A DNA stretch of 35,745 nucleotides, from NCBI GenBank assembly GCA_018818165.1, contig JAHISP010000072.1:1-35745 (forward strand), written 5' to 3'. Position 1 is the stretch's first letter; every line of letters starts with the position of its first letter. Positions 7,143-11,576 of this stretch are shown here, in pieces. This stretch comes from Bacteroidota bacterium (lineage in GTDB: Bacteria > Bacteroidota > Ignavibacteria > Ignavibacteriales > Melioribacteraceae). Below the pieces are notes generated by a model. It did no database searches and had not been told where the DNA came from. It saw only the letters and a program-made list of their open reading frames with translations. The translations under genes and the position numbers were made by a program.

Positions 7143-9599
7143 ATGAAAGGGAAAGTAGCAGTTATCGTTCTATTTAGTTTGGTTTATTATTTTGGTTTAA
7201 CGAACCAAACATATTCACAAACAGCAAATCCAGATATGTGGGTAACTAACGGATCAGTTAACGCAATAGCCATTGATGGAGATTACACATATATTGGTGG
7301 TGATTTTACTTATGTAGGACCAAATACTGGGTGCGGTGCCAAAATAACTACAACATCAACATCGCCAAATATGTCATTCCCCAAGGTTAATGGCAGTATT
7401 GTATGTTCAATCTCAGATGGTAGTGGTGGGTGGTACATTGGAGGTGGTTTCAATAAAGTTGGGACTTATAAAAGAAATAATATTGCACATATTCTTTCAG
7501 ATGGTTCTGTGGATGCAACTTGGAATCCAAATGCAAATAGTGATGTCTATTCAATAGCCATAAGCGGAAGTGATATTTATGTTGGAGGATATTTTACATC
7601 AATCGGTGGTCAGACGAGACACTTTATTGCCAAACTAAACAATACCGAGGGCTCAGCAAATGCAAAATGGAATCCAAATGCAAATGGTCCTGTCTATTCG
7701 ATAGCCGTCAGCGGAAGTGATATTTATGTCGGAGGAGATTTTACATCAATCGGCAGCCAGTTAAGAAACTATATTGCCAAGCTAAACAATACTGATGGTT
7801 CGGTAGATGCAACTTGGAATCCAAATGCAAGCAGTCCTGTCAACTCAATAGTCATTAGTGGAAGCGATATATATGTAGGAGGAACTTTTAACTCAATTGG
7901 TGGTCAGACGAGAAGAGCTATCGCTAAACTAAACAACACCGATGGCTTGGCAGATTCAATATGGAATCCAAATGCAGATTTTATTGTCAATTCAATAGCC
8001 ATCAGCGGAAGTGATATTTATGTTGGAGGAGGTTTTACAACAATCGGTGGTCAGTTGAGAAGTAAAATTGCCAAACTAAACAATACTGATGGCTTTGCAG
8101 ATGCAACTTGGAACCCAAATGCAAGTGGTACTGTCGAATCAATAGCCATCAGCGGAAGTGATATTTATGTTGGAGGATGGTTTAAAACAATCGGCAGCCA
8201 GTTAAGAAACTATATTGCCAAGCTAAACAATACTGATGGCTCGGCAGATGCAACTTGGAATCCAAATGCAAATAGTTATGTCTATTCAATAGCCATCAGC
8301 GGAAGTGATATTTATGTTGGTGGAAATTTTACATCAATTGGTGGTCAGTCGCGAAATAGAATTACCAAACTAAATAATACCAATGGCTCAGCAGATGCAA
8401 CTTGGAATCCAAATGCAAGTGGTACTGTCGAATCAATAGCCATCAGCGGAAGTGATATTTATATTGGAGGAAGTTTTACGTCAATCGGTGGTCAGACGAG
8501 AAACCATATTGCCAAACTAAACAATACTGATGGTTCAGCAGATGTAACTTGGAATCCAAATGCAGATAGTTCTGTCTCTTCAATAGCCATCAGCGGAAGT
8601 GACATTTATGTTGGAGGAGGTTTTTTGATAATTGGTGGTCAGTCGAGAAATCGAATTGCCAAACTAAATAATACTGATGGTTCAGCAGATGCAACATGGA
8701 ATCCAAATGCATATACTTTTGGCTCTGTCAATTCAATAGCCAACAGCGGAAGTGACATTTATGTTGGAGGAGATTTTTCGTCAATTGGTGGTCAGTCGAG
8801 ATTTGGAATTGCCAAACTAAACAATTCTGATGGTTCAGCAGATGCAACATGGAATCCAAATGCAAATAGTACTGTCAATTCAATAGCCATCAGTGGCAGT
8901 GATATTTATGTTGGAGGGGGTTTTACAACAATCGGTGGCCAACTAAGAAACCATCTTGCCAAACTAAACAATACTGATGGCTCGGCAGATGCAACTTGGA
9001 ATCCAAATGTAAATGTTGGTGATTATTCATATATCAGTTCAATAGCCATTAGTGGAAGTGATATTTATGTTGGAGGAGAATTTAATACTTCAATCGGTGG
9101 TCTGTCGAGAAATAGAATTGCCAAATTAAACAATAATGATGGCTCGGCAGATGCAACATGGAATCCAAATGCAAGTAATACTGTCAGATCAATTGCAGCC
9201 AGTGGAAGTGATATTTATGTTGGAGGGAAATTTACTACGATGAATGGTGATGCACAAGGAGGATTTGCACTTTTCACTGATAGAACGCTTCCAGTTGAAC
9301 CAATAATAGAAATTGTGCCATCAGAATACAAGTTGGAACAAAATTACCCAAATCCGTTTAACCCAAGTACGGTAATTAGTTATTCAATACCAACAGATGT
9401 GAGAGGTGAGATGCAAGAAGTGAGACTTATGGTATATGACATACTTGGAAAAGAAGTAGCGACTTTGGTAAACACAAAACAAAGTGCAGGTAACTACGAA
9501 GTTAAATTTAATGCAAACAAACTAACAAGTGGAGTTTATTTCTACAAATTGCAAAATGGCAATTTTACCGAGACAAAGAAGATGCTCCTTTTGAAATAA
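7143..9599 (+). CDS. Secreted beta-propeller-like repeat protein with T9SS sorting domain
   Basis: This 818-aa protein has a signal peptide, then about 14 repeats of roughly 49 residues, then a C-terminal T9SS sorting domain. The repeat core is SIAISGSDIYVGG, FTSIGGQ, IAKLNNTDGSADATWNPNA, which resembles the delta-60/DUF5122 repeat that folds as propeller blades. Two N-terminal units and the last one are degenerate; the eleven in between are nearly identical. The tail (YKLEQNYPNPFNPSTVISYS, then LTSGVYFYKLQNG and KKMLLLK) is the type A sorting signal that directs export through the Por/T9SS machinery and attachment to the cell surface. The function is unknown; surface binding or adhesion is plausible. 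AAGGAAAAA precedes the ATG. A strong hairpin follows the stop. Confidence 0.9.
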   Translation: MKGKVAVIVLFSLVYYFGLTNQTYSQTANPDMWVTNGSVNAIAIDGDYTYIGGDFTYVGPNTGCGAKITTTSTSPNMSFPKVNGSIVCSISDGSGGWYIGGGFNKVGTYKRNNIAHILSDGSVDATWNPNANSDVYSIAISGSDIYVGGYFTSIGGQTRHFIAKLNNTEGSANAKWNPNANGPVYSIAVSGSDIYVGGDFTSIGSQLRNYIAKLNNTDGSVDATWNPNASSPVNSIVISGSDIYVGGTFNSIGGQTRRAIAKLNNTDGLADSIWNPNADFIVNSIAISGSDIYVGGGFTTIGGQLRSKIAKLNNTDGFADATWNPNASGTVESIAISGSDIYVGGWFKTIGSQLRNYIAKLNNTDGSADATWNPNANSYVYSIAISGSDIYVGGNFTSIGGQSRNRITKLNNTNGSADATWNPNASGTVESIAISGSDIYIGGSFTSIGGQTRNHIAKLNNTDGSADVTWNPNADSSVSSIAISGSDIYVGGGFLIIGGQSRNRIAKLNNTDGSADATWNPNAYTFGSVNSIANSGSDIYVGGDFSSIGGQSRFGIAKLNNSDGSADATWNPNANSTVNSIAISGSDIYVGGGFTTIGGQLRNHLAKLNNTDGSADATWNPNVNVGDYSYISSIAISGSDIYVGGEFNTSIGGLSRNRIAKLNNNDGSADATWNPNASNTVRSIAASGSDIYVGGKFTTMNGDAQGGFALFTDRTLPVEPIIEIVPSEYKLEQNYPNPFNPSTVISYSIPTDVRGEMQEVRLMVYDILGKEVATLVNTKQSAGNYEVKFNANKLTSGVYFYKLQNGNFTETKKMLLLK

Positions 9600-9922: not shown

Positions 9923-9961
9923 TTGTTATTTTTGATTTGCATTTTTATTAAAAAATAACAA
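9923..9961. promoter_or_regulatory. Inverted repeat in the trp leader promoter region
   Basis: TTGTTATTTTT at 9923-9933 and its exact complement AAAAATAACAA at 9951-9961 are separated by 17 bases and end 11 bp before the leader-peptide ATG. This could be an operator across a promoter or a 5' hairpin in the leader RNA. A possible -10 (TATAAA) lies near 9899, but no convincing -35 was found. Confidence 0.4.
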
Positions 9962-9972
9962 TTTTAGAAACC

Positions 9973-10023
9973 ATGAAAAAACAATTATCAAATATTAACA
10001 ATTGGTGGTGGTGGCACTTTTAG
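9973..10023 (+). CDS. trpL: Tryptophan leader peptide (attenuator), 16 aa
   Basis: The open frame encodes MKKQLSNINNWWWWHF and a TAG stop. Four consecutive TGG codons near the end of a short peptide, followed within 40 bases by a terminator hairpin and then by a tryptophan synthase gene, are the hallmark of ribosome-mediated transcription attenuation. In known systems, scarcity of charged tRNA-Trp stalls the ribosome on these codons and an alternative RNA fold prevents termination. The peptide itself has no further role. The frame has only a weak upstream Shine-Dalgarno. The gene class is assigned from codon content and context. Confidence 0.87.
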   Translation: MKKQLSNINNWWWWHF

Positions 10024-10094
10024 TTCCTCTGTCCTAAAGTTATATAAATTTTAATAATGCCGTGGATAGTAGGAATACCATTCACGGTTTTTTT
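10024..10094 (+). promoter_or_regulatory. Trp attenuator: candidate antiterminator segments and terminator 1
   Basis: Terminator 1 is CCGTGGAT (10060-10067) paired with ATTCACGG (10080-10087, one G-U), followed by seven T residues. Just after the leader stop, TTCCT (10024-10028) and TCCTA (10032-10036) can pair with AGGAA or TAGGA at 10070-10075, which lie inside the terminator loop. This is a plausible but short antiterminator. The pause hairpin involving the TGG run was not identified with confidence. Confidence 0.65.
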
Positions 10095-10097
10095 GTT

Positions 10098-10128
10098 TTA
10101 AAAGCCGTTTATAAAAGCGGCTTTTTTT
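10098..10128 (+). terminator. Second intrinsic terminator in the trp leader region
   Basis: AAAAGCCGTTT pairs with AAAGCGGCTTTT, with one bulged base, and is followed by a T-run, 4 bp after the T-run of terminator 1. Two terminators in tandem before trpB would make read-through stringent. Either could be the attenuating one. Confidence 0.75.
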
Positions 10129-10168
10129 ATAATTATTTCTAAATCACAATAAATTAATGGAGAAAAAA

Positions 10169-11530
10169 ATGAGAGACAATCAGATTTACCTTAATCCGAG
10201 TGAAATGCCAACAAAGTATTACAACATTGTTCCAGATTTACCAACTCCTTTGGCTATGCCGCTAAATCCTGCCACAAAACAACCAGTTAGTCCCGATGAT
10301 TTAGCACCTCTTTTCCCAGAAGAATTAATTATGCAAGAAGTGAGTCAGGAACGTTTTATTGATATTCCAGAAGAGGTATTGGAATTATATTCATTAAGCC
10401 GTCCAACCGCGATGCACAGAGCATTCCGTTTGGAAAAAGCATTAGGAACTCCAGCAAAAATATTTTTCAAATACGAAGGTAGTAACCCTGCCGGAAGCCA
10501 CAAAACCAACACAGCAATTGCTCAAGCATATTACAACAAAAGGGCTGGAATTAAAAAAATTGTAACAGAAACTGGTGCAGGTCAATGGGGAAGTGCGCTC
10601 TCAATTGCAACACAACATTTTGGAATTGATTTAGAAGTGTACATGGTAAAAGTTAGCTATGACCAAAAGCCTTACAGACGCACTTTAATGCAATTACACG
10701 ATGCTAAAGTTTATGCATCACCATCCAATAGAACAAATTCTGGAAGACAAATTTTGGAAAAAGACCCGAACTCGCCTGGTTCACTTGGAGTTGCAATTAG
10801 CGAAGCTGTTGAGATAGCAGCAAATAACAAAGATACAAATTATGCACTTGGTTCAGTATTAAATCATGTAATGTTGCATCAATCAATTATTGGGGAAGAA
10901 GCTCGCTTGCAACTTGATAAAGTGAATGAATATCCCGATATAATTGTTGCCTCAGCTGGTGGAGGAAGTAACTTTGCCGGGATTGCAAGTCCATTTTTAC
11001 GTGATAAATTATCTGGAGCAAAAAAGGATTTAAAGGTTGTTGCAGTAGAACCATCTTCCTGTCCTACATTAACGAAAGGCAAATTTGCGTACGATTTTGG
11101 TGATACTGTTGGTTTTACTCCATTATTAAAAATGTTTACACTAGGTCACACATTTATTCCACCCGCAATTCACGCTGGCGGTTTGCGTTATCATGGAATG
11201 TCTCCAATTGTTTCCAACCTTTATGAAAATAAAGTAATTGAGGCAGTAAATTATCACCAGATTGAGGTATTTGATGCGGCAAAATTGTTTTTAACAACTG
11301 AAGGTATTTTGCCAGCACCAGAAAGTGCACATGCAATTAAAGGTGCAATTGAACAAGCAAAATTATGCACCGAAAGAAACGAAGCAAAAACAATTCTTTT
11401 TAATCTTTCTGGGCATGGATTTTTGGATCTCGGTTCTTATGGTTCATATATAGATAATAAGCTTGAAGATTACAAATTGCCTGATGAAGTAATTATGCGA
11501 TATTTTGCTGATTTGCCAATTGTGGATTAG
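10169..11530 (+). CDS. trpB: Tryptophan synthase beta chain, TrpB2 type
   Basis: This PLP enzyme makes L-tryptophan from indole and serine. The 453-aa length, N-terminal extension and diagnostic stretches (RPTAMHRAFRLEKALGTPAK, FKYEGSNPAGSHKTNTA, ETGAGQWGSALS, YDQKPYRRTLMQLHDA, IHAGGLRYHGMSP) mark the TrpB2 branch, not the shorter TrpB1 that partners TrpA. The PLP lysine is Lys112 in GSHKTN; the phosphate loop is SAGGGSNFAG. I place the start at 10169 because GGAG lies seven bases upstream. The in-frame ATG at 10157 lacks a ribosome-binding site and contributes that GGAG. No other trp gene is adjacent. Expression is evidently controlled by the Trp-codon leader upstream. TrpB2 is often viewed as an indole-salvage enzyme, so tRNA-Trp-dependent control is informative. 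Confidence 0.93.
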   Translation: MRDNQIYLNPSEMPTKYYNIVPDLPTPLAMPLNPATKQPVSPDDLAPLFPEELIMQEVSQERFIDIPEEVLELYSLSRPTAMHRAFRLEKALGTPAKIFFKYEGSNPAGSHKTNTAIAQAYYNKRAGIKKIVTETGAGQWGSALSIATQHFGIDLEVYMVKVSYDQKPYRRTLMQLHDAKVYASPSNRTNSGRQILEKDPNSPGSLGVAISEAVEIAANNKDTNYALGSVLNHVMLHQSIIGEEARLQLDKVNEYPDIIVASAGGGSNFAGIASPFLRDKLSGAKKDLKVVAVEPSSCPTLTKGKFAYDFGDTVGFTPLLKMFTLGHTFIPPAIHAGGLRYHGMSPIVSNLYENKVIEAVNYHQIEVFDAAKLFLTTEGILPAPESAHAIKGAIEQAKLCTERNEAKTILFNLSGHGFLDLGSYGSYIDNKLEDYKLPDEVIMRYFADLPIVD

Positions 11531-11542
11531 TTAAATTTTGTT

Positions 11543-11576
11543 TATTCACCTGCAGTTTCTTAACTGTGGGTGAATA
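11543..11576 (+). terminator. Hairpin after trpB
   Basis: A 15-bp stem with two wobble pairs (TATTCACCTGCAGTT with AACTGTGGGTGAATA) closes a 4-base loop 12 bp past the stop. The T-run is weak. Confidence 0.65.

Follow-up and report, generated by a model that had tools for sequence, protein, structure and literature searches.

The window, by which we mean the whole 35,745-nucleotide stretch analysed here, belongs to a genome of 4.88 Mb that lies near the Melioribacteraceae/Ignavibacteriales (top named match, Ignavibacteriales CG18, 95%). It carries a trpB2 gene preceded by a short leader frame with tryptophan codons and by two hairpins, each followed by a run of Ts. The features of this region are listed below.

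9936–9966, plus strand: candidate Bacteroidota-like promoter, read by eye (TTTG at 9936–9939, 19 nt, then CAATTTTA at 9959–9966)
9973–10023, plus strand: leader peptide ORF MKKQLSNINNWWWWHF-stop (16 codons), from the ORF list and from relatives; it is perhaps leaderless, its start coinciding or almost coinciding with the RNA 5' end
10003–10014, plus strand: four consecutive TGG (Trp) codons inside the leader ORF, the presumed sensing site
10013–10018, plus strand: segment 1, 5' arm of the protector hairpin, which pairs with 10022–10027 with one mismatch in the window
10024–10034, plus strand: segment 2, 5' arm of the antiterminator (TTCCTCTGTCC), from folding
10059–10094, plus strand: terminator T1 (3:4), a hairpin at 10059–10088 and then a T run
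10064–10075, plus strand: segment 3, 3' arm of the antiterminator, within the T1 5' arm and loop
10083–10092, plus strand: segment 4, the T1 3' arm with its Us, which can pair with segment 5 (-9.4 kcal/mol in the window)
10100–10109, plus strand: segment 5, the T2 5' arm, from its complementarity to the T1 3' arm
10100–10131, plus strand: terminator T2 (5:6), a hairpin at 10100–10125 and a T run, from the terminator scan and folding
10157–11530, plus strand: trpB2, 457 amino acids; the likelier start is the ATG at 10169, after the Shine-Dalgarno sequence GGAG at 10159–10162

A sequence-only reading of this DNA had picked out the leader frame with its four TGG codons ahead of trpB2, and both are confirmed. 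The four-TGG string TGGTGGTGGTGG is present seven times in the 4.88-Mb genome; the other six copies all fall within open frames of 226–681 codons in a different frame or strand, and the leader copy has no competing frame longer than 25 codons. Among the aligned relatives the leader holds two to four Trp codons, which are consecutive or split by one or two codons. Ribosome-mediated Trp attenuators are characterized by a short ORF that has tandem Trp codons and lies ahead of the gene, and the locus shows this feature. Interrupted runs replace WWWW in two relatives, namely WRQWQ in L013 (G034) and WWQW in L019 (G049).

A sigma-70 promoter scan of the window returned nothing at the leader. The TTTG-N19-CAATTTTA arrangement ends 6 nt upstream of the leader ATG and was compared with the Bacteroidota promoter consensus, the window box not being a strict TAnnTTT. 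As a raw count, 23 of the 38 loci have a TAnnTTT that starts 10–21 nt ahead of their leader; the window is outside this group. If the Bacteroidota consensus applies, the leader would be translated from an RNA almost devoid of a 5' UTR; leaderless attenuator ORFs are known in mycobacteria. In two relatives the end of a tRNA-Lys gene lies a few bases ahead of the leader ORF of trpB2 (L029:3004–3076, L032:2995–3067 (minus strand)), and there the leader RNA may be freed by tRNA processing rather than by its own promoter.

Both of the terminators described earlier were recovered: T1 and T2 fold far better than shuffled sequences (z of -4.2 and -3.5, respectively) and each is followed by Ts. The consensus terminator scan lists T2 only, T1 being absent from its output. 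T1 follows the leader stop codon at a distance of 35 nt, which places an intrinsic terminator between leader and gene, as in Trp attenuators. The short segments said to pair with the terminator are also real, since 10024–10034 pairs with 10064–10075; the minimum-energy fold of 10015–10096 is the antiterminator, and 10052–10096 folds as T1. The antiterminator overlaps the terminator 5' arm, and this overlap is kept in relatives.

Operons do end in back-to-back terminators, and the hairpins could be taken as ordinary terminators of the upstream gene (7143–9599), with the TGG run there by chance. T1, however, starts 460 nt past the upstream ORF, and the leader, the pairings and their place before trpB2 recur in relatives, two of which (L029 and L032) have the tRNA-Lys gene just upstream instead. 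Chance is further opposed by the fact that only one of the seven genomic TGG runs is free of a long competing frame. Both the upstream-gene and the chance-TGG explanations were rejected because of the recurrence before trpB2, the conservation of the helices and the unique context of the TGG run, and we consider them highly improbable.

For the three competing helices, 31 loci were aligned from the TGG run to T1 and each helix was scored against 500 shuffles. Over the 31 rows, 96.8% of cells were paired in the terminator 3:4 (8 changed on both sides; covariation 0.146 against 0.115, sd 0.008, in shuffles), 93.5% in the antiterminator 2:3 (22 changed on both sides; 0.317 against 0.229, sd 0.016) and 83.8% in the protector 1:2 (24 changed on both sides; 0.440 against 0.233, sd 0.025). 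No shuffle among 500 reached the covariation score of 3:4, 2:3 or 1:2, and pairing drops when the partner is slid. Kinship alone can exceed column shuffles, and the measures least prone to this are the changes on both sides and the pair types; neither was clearly above the shuffles, the former being equalled by 88, 14 and 93 of 500 and the latter by 482, 352 and 158 of 500 for 3:4, 2:3 and 1:2, respectively. The earlier expectation that relatives would show conserved TGG runs and compensatory changes is thus borne out for the TGG run, the terminator and the covariation score, but not clearly by the stricter counts. The protector 1:2 adjoins the Trp codons over the 31 rows, and is weak in the window, where its probability is 0.05 without a ribosome.

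Partial transcripts of the 31 loci were then folded with a mask on the leader that mimics a ribosome either stalled or at the stop codon. With the stalled mask and the RNA extended to just before the complete T1 3' arm, the probability of 2:3 exceeded 0.5 in 31/31 loci; with the ribosome at the stop, that of T1 exceeded 0.5 in all 31 as well. Without a ribosome T1 was ahead of 2:3 in 28/31, the exceptions that favour antitermination being the window (L008), L009 and L014. At equilibrium over the region from leader to T1 end, T1 beats the stalled 2:3 in 28 of the 31 loci, so that the switch must be kinetic in most relatives; 2:3 wins in three, and in the window it does so with a probability of 0.97. 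Whole-leader equilibrium folding was dropped as a test of the switch, T1 being ahead of 2:3 in most loci even when stalled. Because its protector is weak, the default state of the window without translation may be 'on'. A ribosome covers up to 12 nt past the stop codon according to PMC4833913, and in the window segment 2 (10024–10034) would then be covered.

We propose that trpB2 is transcribed as a single gene under the control of a ribosome-mediated tryptophan attenuator, a reading to which we assign a probability of roughly 0.87 on the sequence evidence. It upholds the interpretation first offered for this DNA, in that the leader, terminator and alternative pairings are conserved in relatives. 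The codons, hairpins, alternative pairings, their conservation and their confinement to one trpB2 clade are seen directly; for the promoter, the ribosome positions, the direction of the response to tryptophan, the relay considered below and the role of the enzyme we infer the following course. The RNA would start close to, or exactly at, the leader ATG. With little charged tRNA-Trp available, the ribosome would stall on the TGG run and cover segment 1; segments 2 and 3 would then pair while the T1 3' arm is still to be transcribed, T1 would not form and RNA polymerase would go on. When charged tRNA-Trp is plentiful, the ribosome would reach the stop codon and cover segment 2, T1 would form and transcription would end. 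If the leader is not translated, T1 is predicted in most of the folded loci (default off), and not in the window. The TrpB2 product would be expected to convert indole to tryptophan independently of TrpA. As an added and less certain layer, segment 4 may also pair with segment 5, and antitermination at T1 would then also disfavour T2 in the host genome or free the trpB2 Shine-Dalgarno sequence in a sister group.

The enterobacterial trp operon attenuator (trpL) combines tandem Trp codons, mutually exclusive 1:2, 2:3 and 3:4 helices and an intrinsic terminator, and responds to charged tRNA-Trp. The trpB2 leader shares the tandem codons, the exclusive helices and the terminator, and presumably the dependence on tRNA-Trp. 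It differs from trpL in having no Rfam match, a single-gene target, a leader start possibly at the RNA 5' end, an antiterminator arm that abuts or lies inside the leader ORF, and a T2 or Shine-Dalgarno module after T1 in 32/38 loci. An Rfam search of the window gave no match to any family, and the gathering score of Trp_leader (RF00513) was not reached. By the sequence evidence, a known mechanism stands here before a lone trpB2. The actinobacterial trp attenuators treated in passages of PMC1262725, one of them before trpB2A in C. diphtheriae, likewise have a UGG-rich leader and a terminator/antiterminator pair; unlike the present case they precede operons, the 'trpB2' there is the second trpB in trpB2A, and no 4:5 relay was found in those passages. 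An open-access literature search brought up, among the matches listed, no paper that describes attenuation upstream of a TrpB2_o gene or within the Ignavibacteria, a class to which the present locus would add tryptophan attenuation.

In total, 38 trpB2 loci with the leader and T1 layout were compared. A TrpB match was obtained in 72 of the 79 genomes of the GTDB family; among the matches listed, 43 score above 300 bits. A W-run leader and T1 precede trpB2 in 28 of the 30 family loci examined; L017 ends at a contig edge and L026 has no Trp run. The layout is also found in three named loci (L057, L058 and L059) and seven further ones of other families; the named-database search covered the best 80 of 355 candidate loci, and upstream DNA was read for 42. 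None of the next 12 family TrpB2 loci (59–64% identity) has the element, the partial thirteenth, L050, not being counted. In a phylogenetic tree rooted at its midpoint, the attenuator-bearing trpB2 genes fall in a single clade, which has 41 rows and support of 100/99; the 19 rows of its sister group lack the attenuator.

Searches with an RNA model of the element (R1) gave a similar distribution. Matches at E<=5.7e-5 were obtained in 38 of 164 genomes of the order, 37 of them upstream of trpB2 and the remaining one (G005) at a contig edge. Of 21 weaker or more distant matches, five lie before trpE (L171, L174, L175, L176 and L178) and two before trpB2, namely L186, which is L059 again, and L184, whose leader is broken; the other 14 (L172, L173, L177, L179–L181, L185 and L187–L193) have no match to the seven trp query proteins nearby. 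A class sample of 391 genomes yielded 33 matches at E<=0.001, eight of which are outside the order, two upstream of trpB2 (G248 and G286) and six not. A phylum sample of 395 genomes yielded 13 matches, ten in the order, one in G248 and two away from trpB2. In G286 (L184) the scan found no W leader started by ATG or GTG, and this leader looks broken or mis-sequenced. Judged by the contexts of the 21 weaker matches, false positives are frequent among R1 matches beyond the order with E around 1e-3 to 1e-5.

The second terminator of the sequence-only reading needs refinement: its hairpin and T run are real, and it is best described as part of a downstream module that in a derived group is possibly a Shine-Dalgarno sequestor. 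The complementarity of the T1 3' arm to the spacer was compared with 1000 dinucleotide shuffles of the spacer in all 38 loci, independently of the pattern by which segment 5 was recognized. Seventeen loci including the window (type A) carry a second terminator, the 5' arm of which could base-pair with the T1 3' arm; the arm-spacer complementarity has p<0.05 in 14/17; the misses are the window (0.057), L011 (0.089) and L018 (0.082). Fifteen loci (type B) have instead a segment GCCGTGAAC or similar, with perfect or near-perfect pairing to the T1 3' arm (p<=0.001 in 15/15); this segment is complementary to the Shine-Dalgarno region of trpB2 as well, for example GGAGGTTCAC (p<=0.018 in 15/15). GGTTCA stands beside the Shine-Dalgarno sequence in all 15 type B loci and in 0/23 others. 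Four loci (type C: L019, L022, L023 and L027) show no arm complementarity (p>=0.49), and only L023 shows pairing to the Shine-Dalgarno region (p=0.028). Neither L031 (arm p=0.026, Shine-Dalgarno p=0.91) nor L059 (0.28 and 0.19) was placed in types A–C. In the TrpB2 tree type A is basal on both sides, and type B, with type C, L026 and L031 inside, is one group (99/95). Remnants resembling T2 are kept in the type B loci L024, L025, L028, L030 and L058. The simplest reading, though not a forced one, is a single exchange of T2 for the Shine-Dalgarno module.

Conditional folding downstream of T1, with segment 4 free or locked, was done for 14 of the 15 type B and for 11 type A loci. In type B the minimum-energy fold with segment 4 free has 4:5 in 14/14, and with segment 4 locked segment 5 pairs with the Shine-Dalgarno region in 13/14, L024 forming a T2-like hairpin. 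Accessibility from Shine-Dalgarno to ATG is computed to rise modestly, by a factor of 0.9 to 2.6, with practically no gain in L020, L024 and L035. In type A, T2 is retained in 9/11 loci with segment 4 free (exceptions, L011 and L016), and in the window it wins at equilibrium; a type A relay could therefore only be kinetic.

These results can be read as a six-segment relay, for which we would give about even odds. The T1 3' arm would act as the release strand of a second downstream block, so that a single stalled ribosome would undo two locks; the second of these would ancestrally be a terminator, swapped apparently once for a sequestor of the trpB2 Shine-Dalgarno sequence, with intermediates that bear traces of both, and the switch would guard the indole-to-tryptophan enzyme, the sole trp gene left after repeated pathway loss. 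T2 may then not be redundant, the pairings suggesting that the relay enforces one decision twice. In the window the relay is weak: the arm-alone p is 0.057 and T2 still folds with segment 4 free. The alternative is that the core attenuator stands and T2 is a mere back-up, the 4:5 complementarity being a by-product of a T2 copied from or convergent with T1. The short 4:5 helix of the window and the retention of T2 with segment 4 free in 9 of the 11 folded T2-type loci fit this explanation, as do the T1-arm changes in L009–L011 and L167 that segment 5 does not match; in L018, L168 and L170, however, segment 5 varies together with T1.

The column shuffles of 4:5 bear on both sides. They covered 33 of the 38 loci, leaving out L059 and four loci without segment 5, and gave 308/363 paired cells against 299 in shuffles (1/2000 as high); this is a weak test, since segment 5 was chosen by a pattern that fixes its CG core, so that its conservation is built in, and the loci of the Shine-Dalgarno type vary too little. 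For the 17 T2-type loci alone the paired cells are not above shuffles (454/2000 as high), while the covariation score is (2/500), and the spacer test adds its 14/17. Weak R1 matches elsewhere are ordinary terminators with similar GCCG..CGGC stems (L172, L173, L177, L179 and L180), as a back-up T2 would have it. Against this, AAAGCCG..CGGCTTT occurs at only three places in the 4.88-Mb genome, one of them T2, a rarity that speaks against a generic terminator motif in spite of the similar stems elsewhere. A second, unreleased terminator would also tend to hold the gene off, and in the derived group segment 5 matches both the T1 arm and the Shine-Dalgarno region in 15/15. We regard the back-up explanation as a serious one, somewhat short of an even chance.

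If the relay is real, a transcription attenuator has been extended, or turned towards translation control, by the rewiring of one strand, and the intermediates would be visible in living lineages. In the rtpA (anti-TRAP) operon a single leader also combines transcription and translation control, and uses a T-box. Judging by the title of a study cited in PMC10314930, B. subtilis vmlR likewise has both controls in one leader; it answers antibiotics.

The assignment of the gene to the TrpB2 type was confirmed, the protein scoring above the cut-offs of NF009057 (704 bits) and TIGR01415 trpB_rel (624 bits) and below that of TIGR00263 (trpB). By gene context it is of the TrpB2_o kind of PMC1854888, which lies outside the operon with TrpB1 in the trp operon: trpB2 is on contig C23, and TrpB1 (C19:84080–85090) is near trpC and trpA. 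The host trp operon contains trpE, trpC, TrpB1 and trpA by search, and its intervening ORFs, named by eye, resemble trpG, trpD, trpF and an aroF-like gene.

Several relatives are more reduced. The 28 family genomes in which trpB2 is attenuated divide as follows: trpA and trpC are both present in 15, and neither is above cut-off in ten (G006, G012, G013, G015, G027, G029, G034, G074, G075 and G076), G034 and G075 having trpA-like matches under it. In G063, which has trpC and trpE, no trpA was found; G025, with trpE, and G020, 66% complete and without trpE, are outside the 75-genome samples for trpA and trpC. A trpE search of 16 genomes, with matches in four, gave 0/10 in the ten. These also have no match at the level of TrpB1; G027 and G029 show only hits of E>=4e-5. 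With a completeness of 93% or more, seven of these genomes (G006, G012, G027, G029, G034, G074 and G076) keep the attenuated trpB2 without trpE, trpC, trpA or trpB1 above cut-off, although draft assemblies may miss genes. The ten are scattered at several places of the TrpB2 tree.

The 'primary or stress role' first suggested for TrpB2 in tryptophan supply is better put as conversion of indole to tryptophan without TrpA, given that in several relatives trpB2 is the one trp gene detected. The survival of trpB2, presumably under Trp control, beyond the loss of the pathway is consistent with an enzyme that turns acquired indole into tryptophan, and the pattern favours scavenged indole as the probable substrate. 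In T. kodakarensis, which has TrpB1 and TrpB2, indole-to-tryptophan conversion is cited in PMC11085991. TrpB2 might on the other hand be mainly something other than a tryptophan synthase, e.g. a serine deaminase, a role once predicted for it as reported in PMC1854888, and TIGR01415 is only a 'hypothetical equivalog' family. We think this unlikely: according to the same text the TrpB2_o proteins tested had poor serine deaminase activity, the T. kodakarensis conversion points the other way, and so do the presumptive control by Trp codons and the retention of the gene in the seven genomes where no other trp gene was detected. For P. horikoshii, whose trpB2_o is kept without other trp genes, another, not yet identified selective function is put forward in PMC1854888; a Trp-codon sensor together with survival without other trp genes makes 'tryptophan from indole' a testable answer to the question of trpB2_o function.

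The attenuator does stand before a lone trpB2, as had been claimed, but it is not peculiar to that gene, since the host trpE also has one. Its leader MKNLLNISTLNKNNNWAWWQFIL-stop (WAWW) lies at L051:1870–1941 (G000:C19) and is followed by a terminator at L051:1981–2006, the loop and 3' arm of which could base-pair with CTCAGTGA downstream of the leader stop; another hairpin, this one lacking a T run, stands before trpE. Five relatives (L171, L174, L175, L176 and L178) also have a W-rich leader and a terminator before trpE, as at trpB2. A complement for 2:3 is visible by eye in L051 and L175. In the five relatives trpE follows T1 within a few tens of bases, and by eye there is no T2 or Shine-Dalgarno module, which sets them apart from trpB2.

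Other tryptophan leaders were observed before more distant trpB2 genes. In L040, L041 and L045 (G073, G071 and G072) a leader ending in WW (..WWLSC-stop) has a hairpin across its stop and no T run, and is possibly a translational attenuator. L110 (Bacteroidales) has an apparently separate WWW leader, MKKINLHTWWWHGINSNAVNHAGM-stop, with a terminator. Directly 3' of trpB2 in the window, an inverted repeat without a T run was read by eye at 11543–11576; it is perhaps the end of the single-gene transcript.
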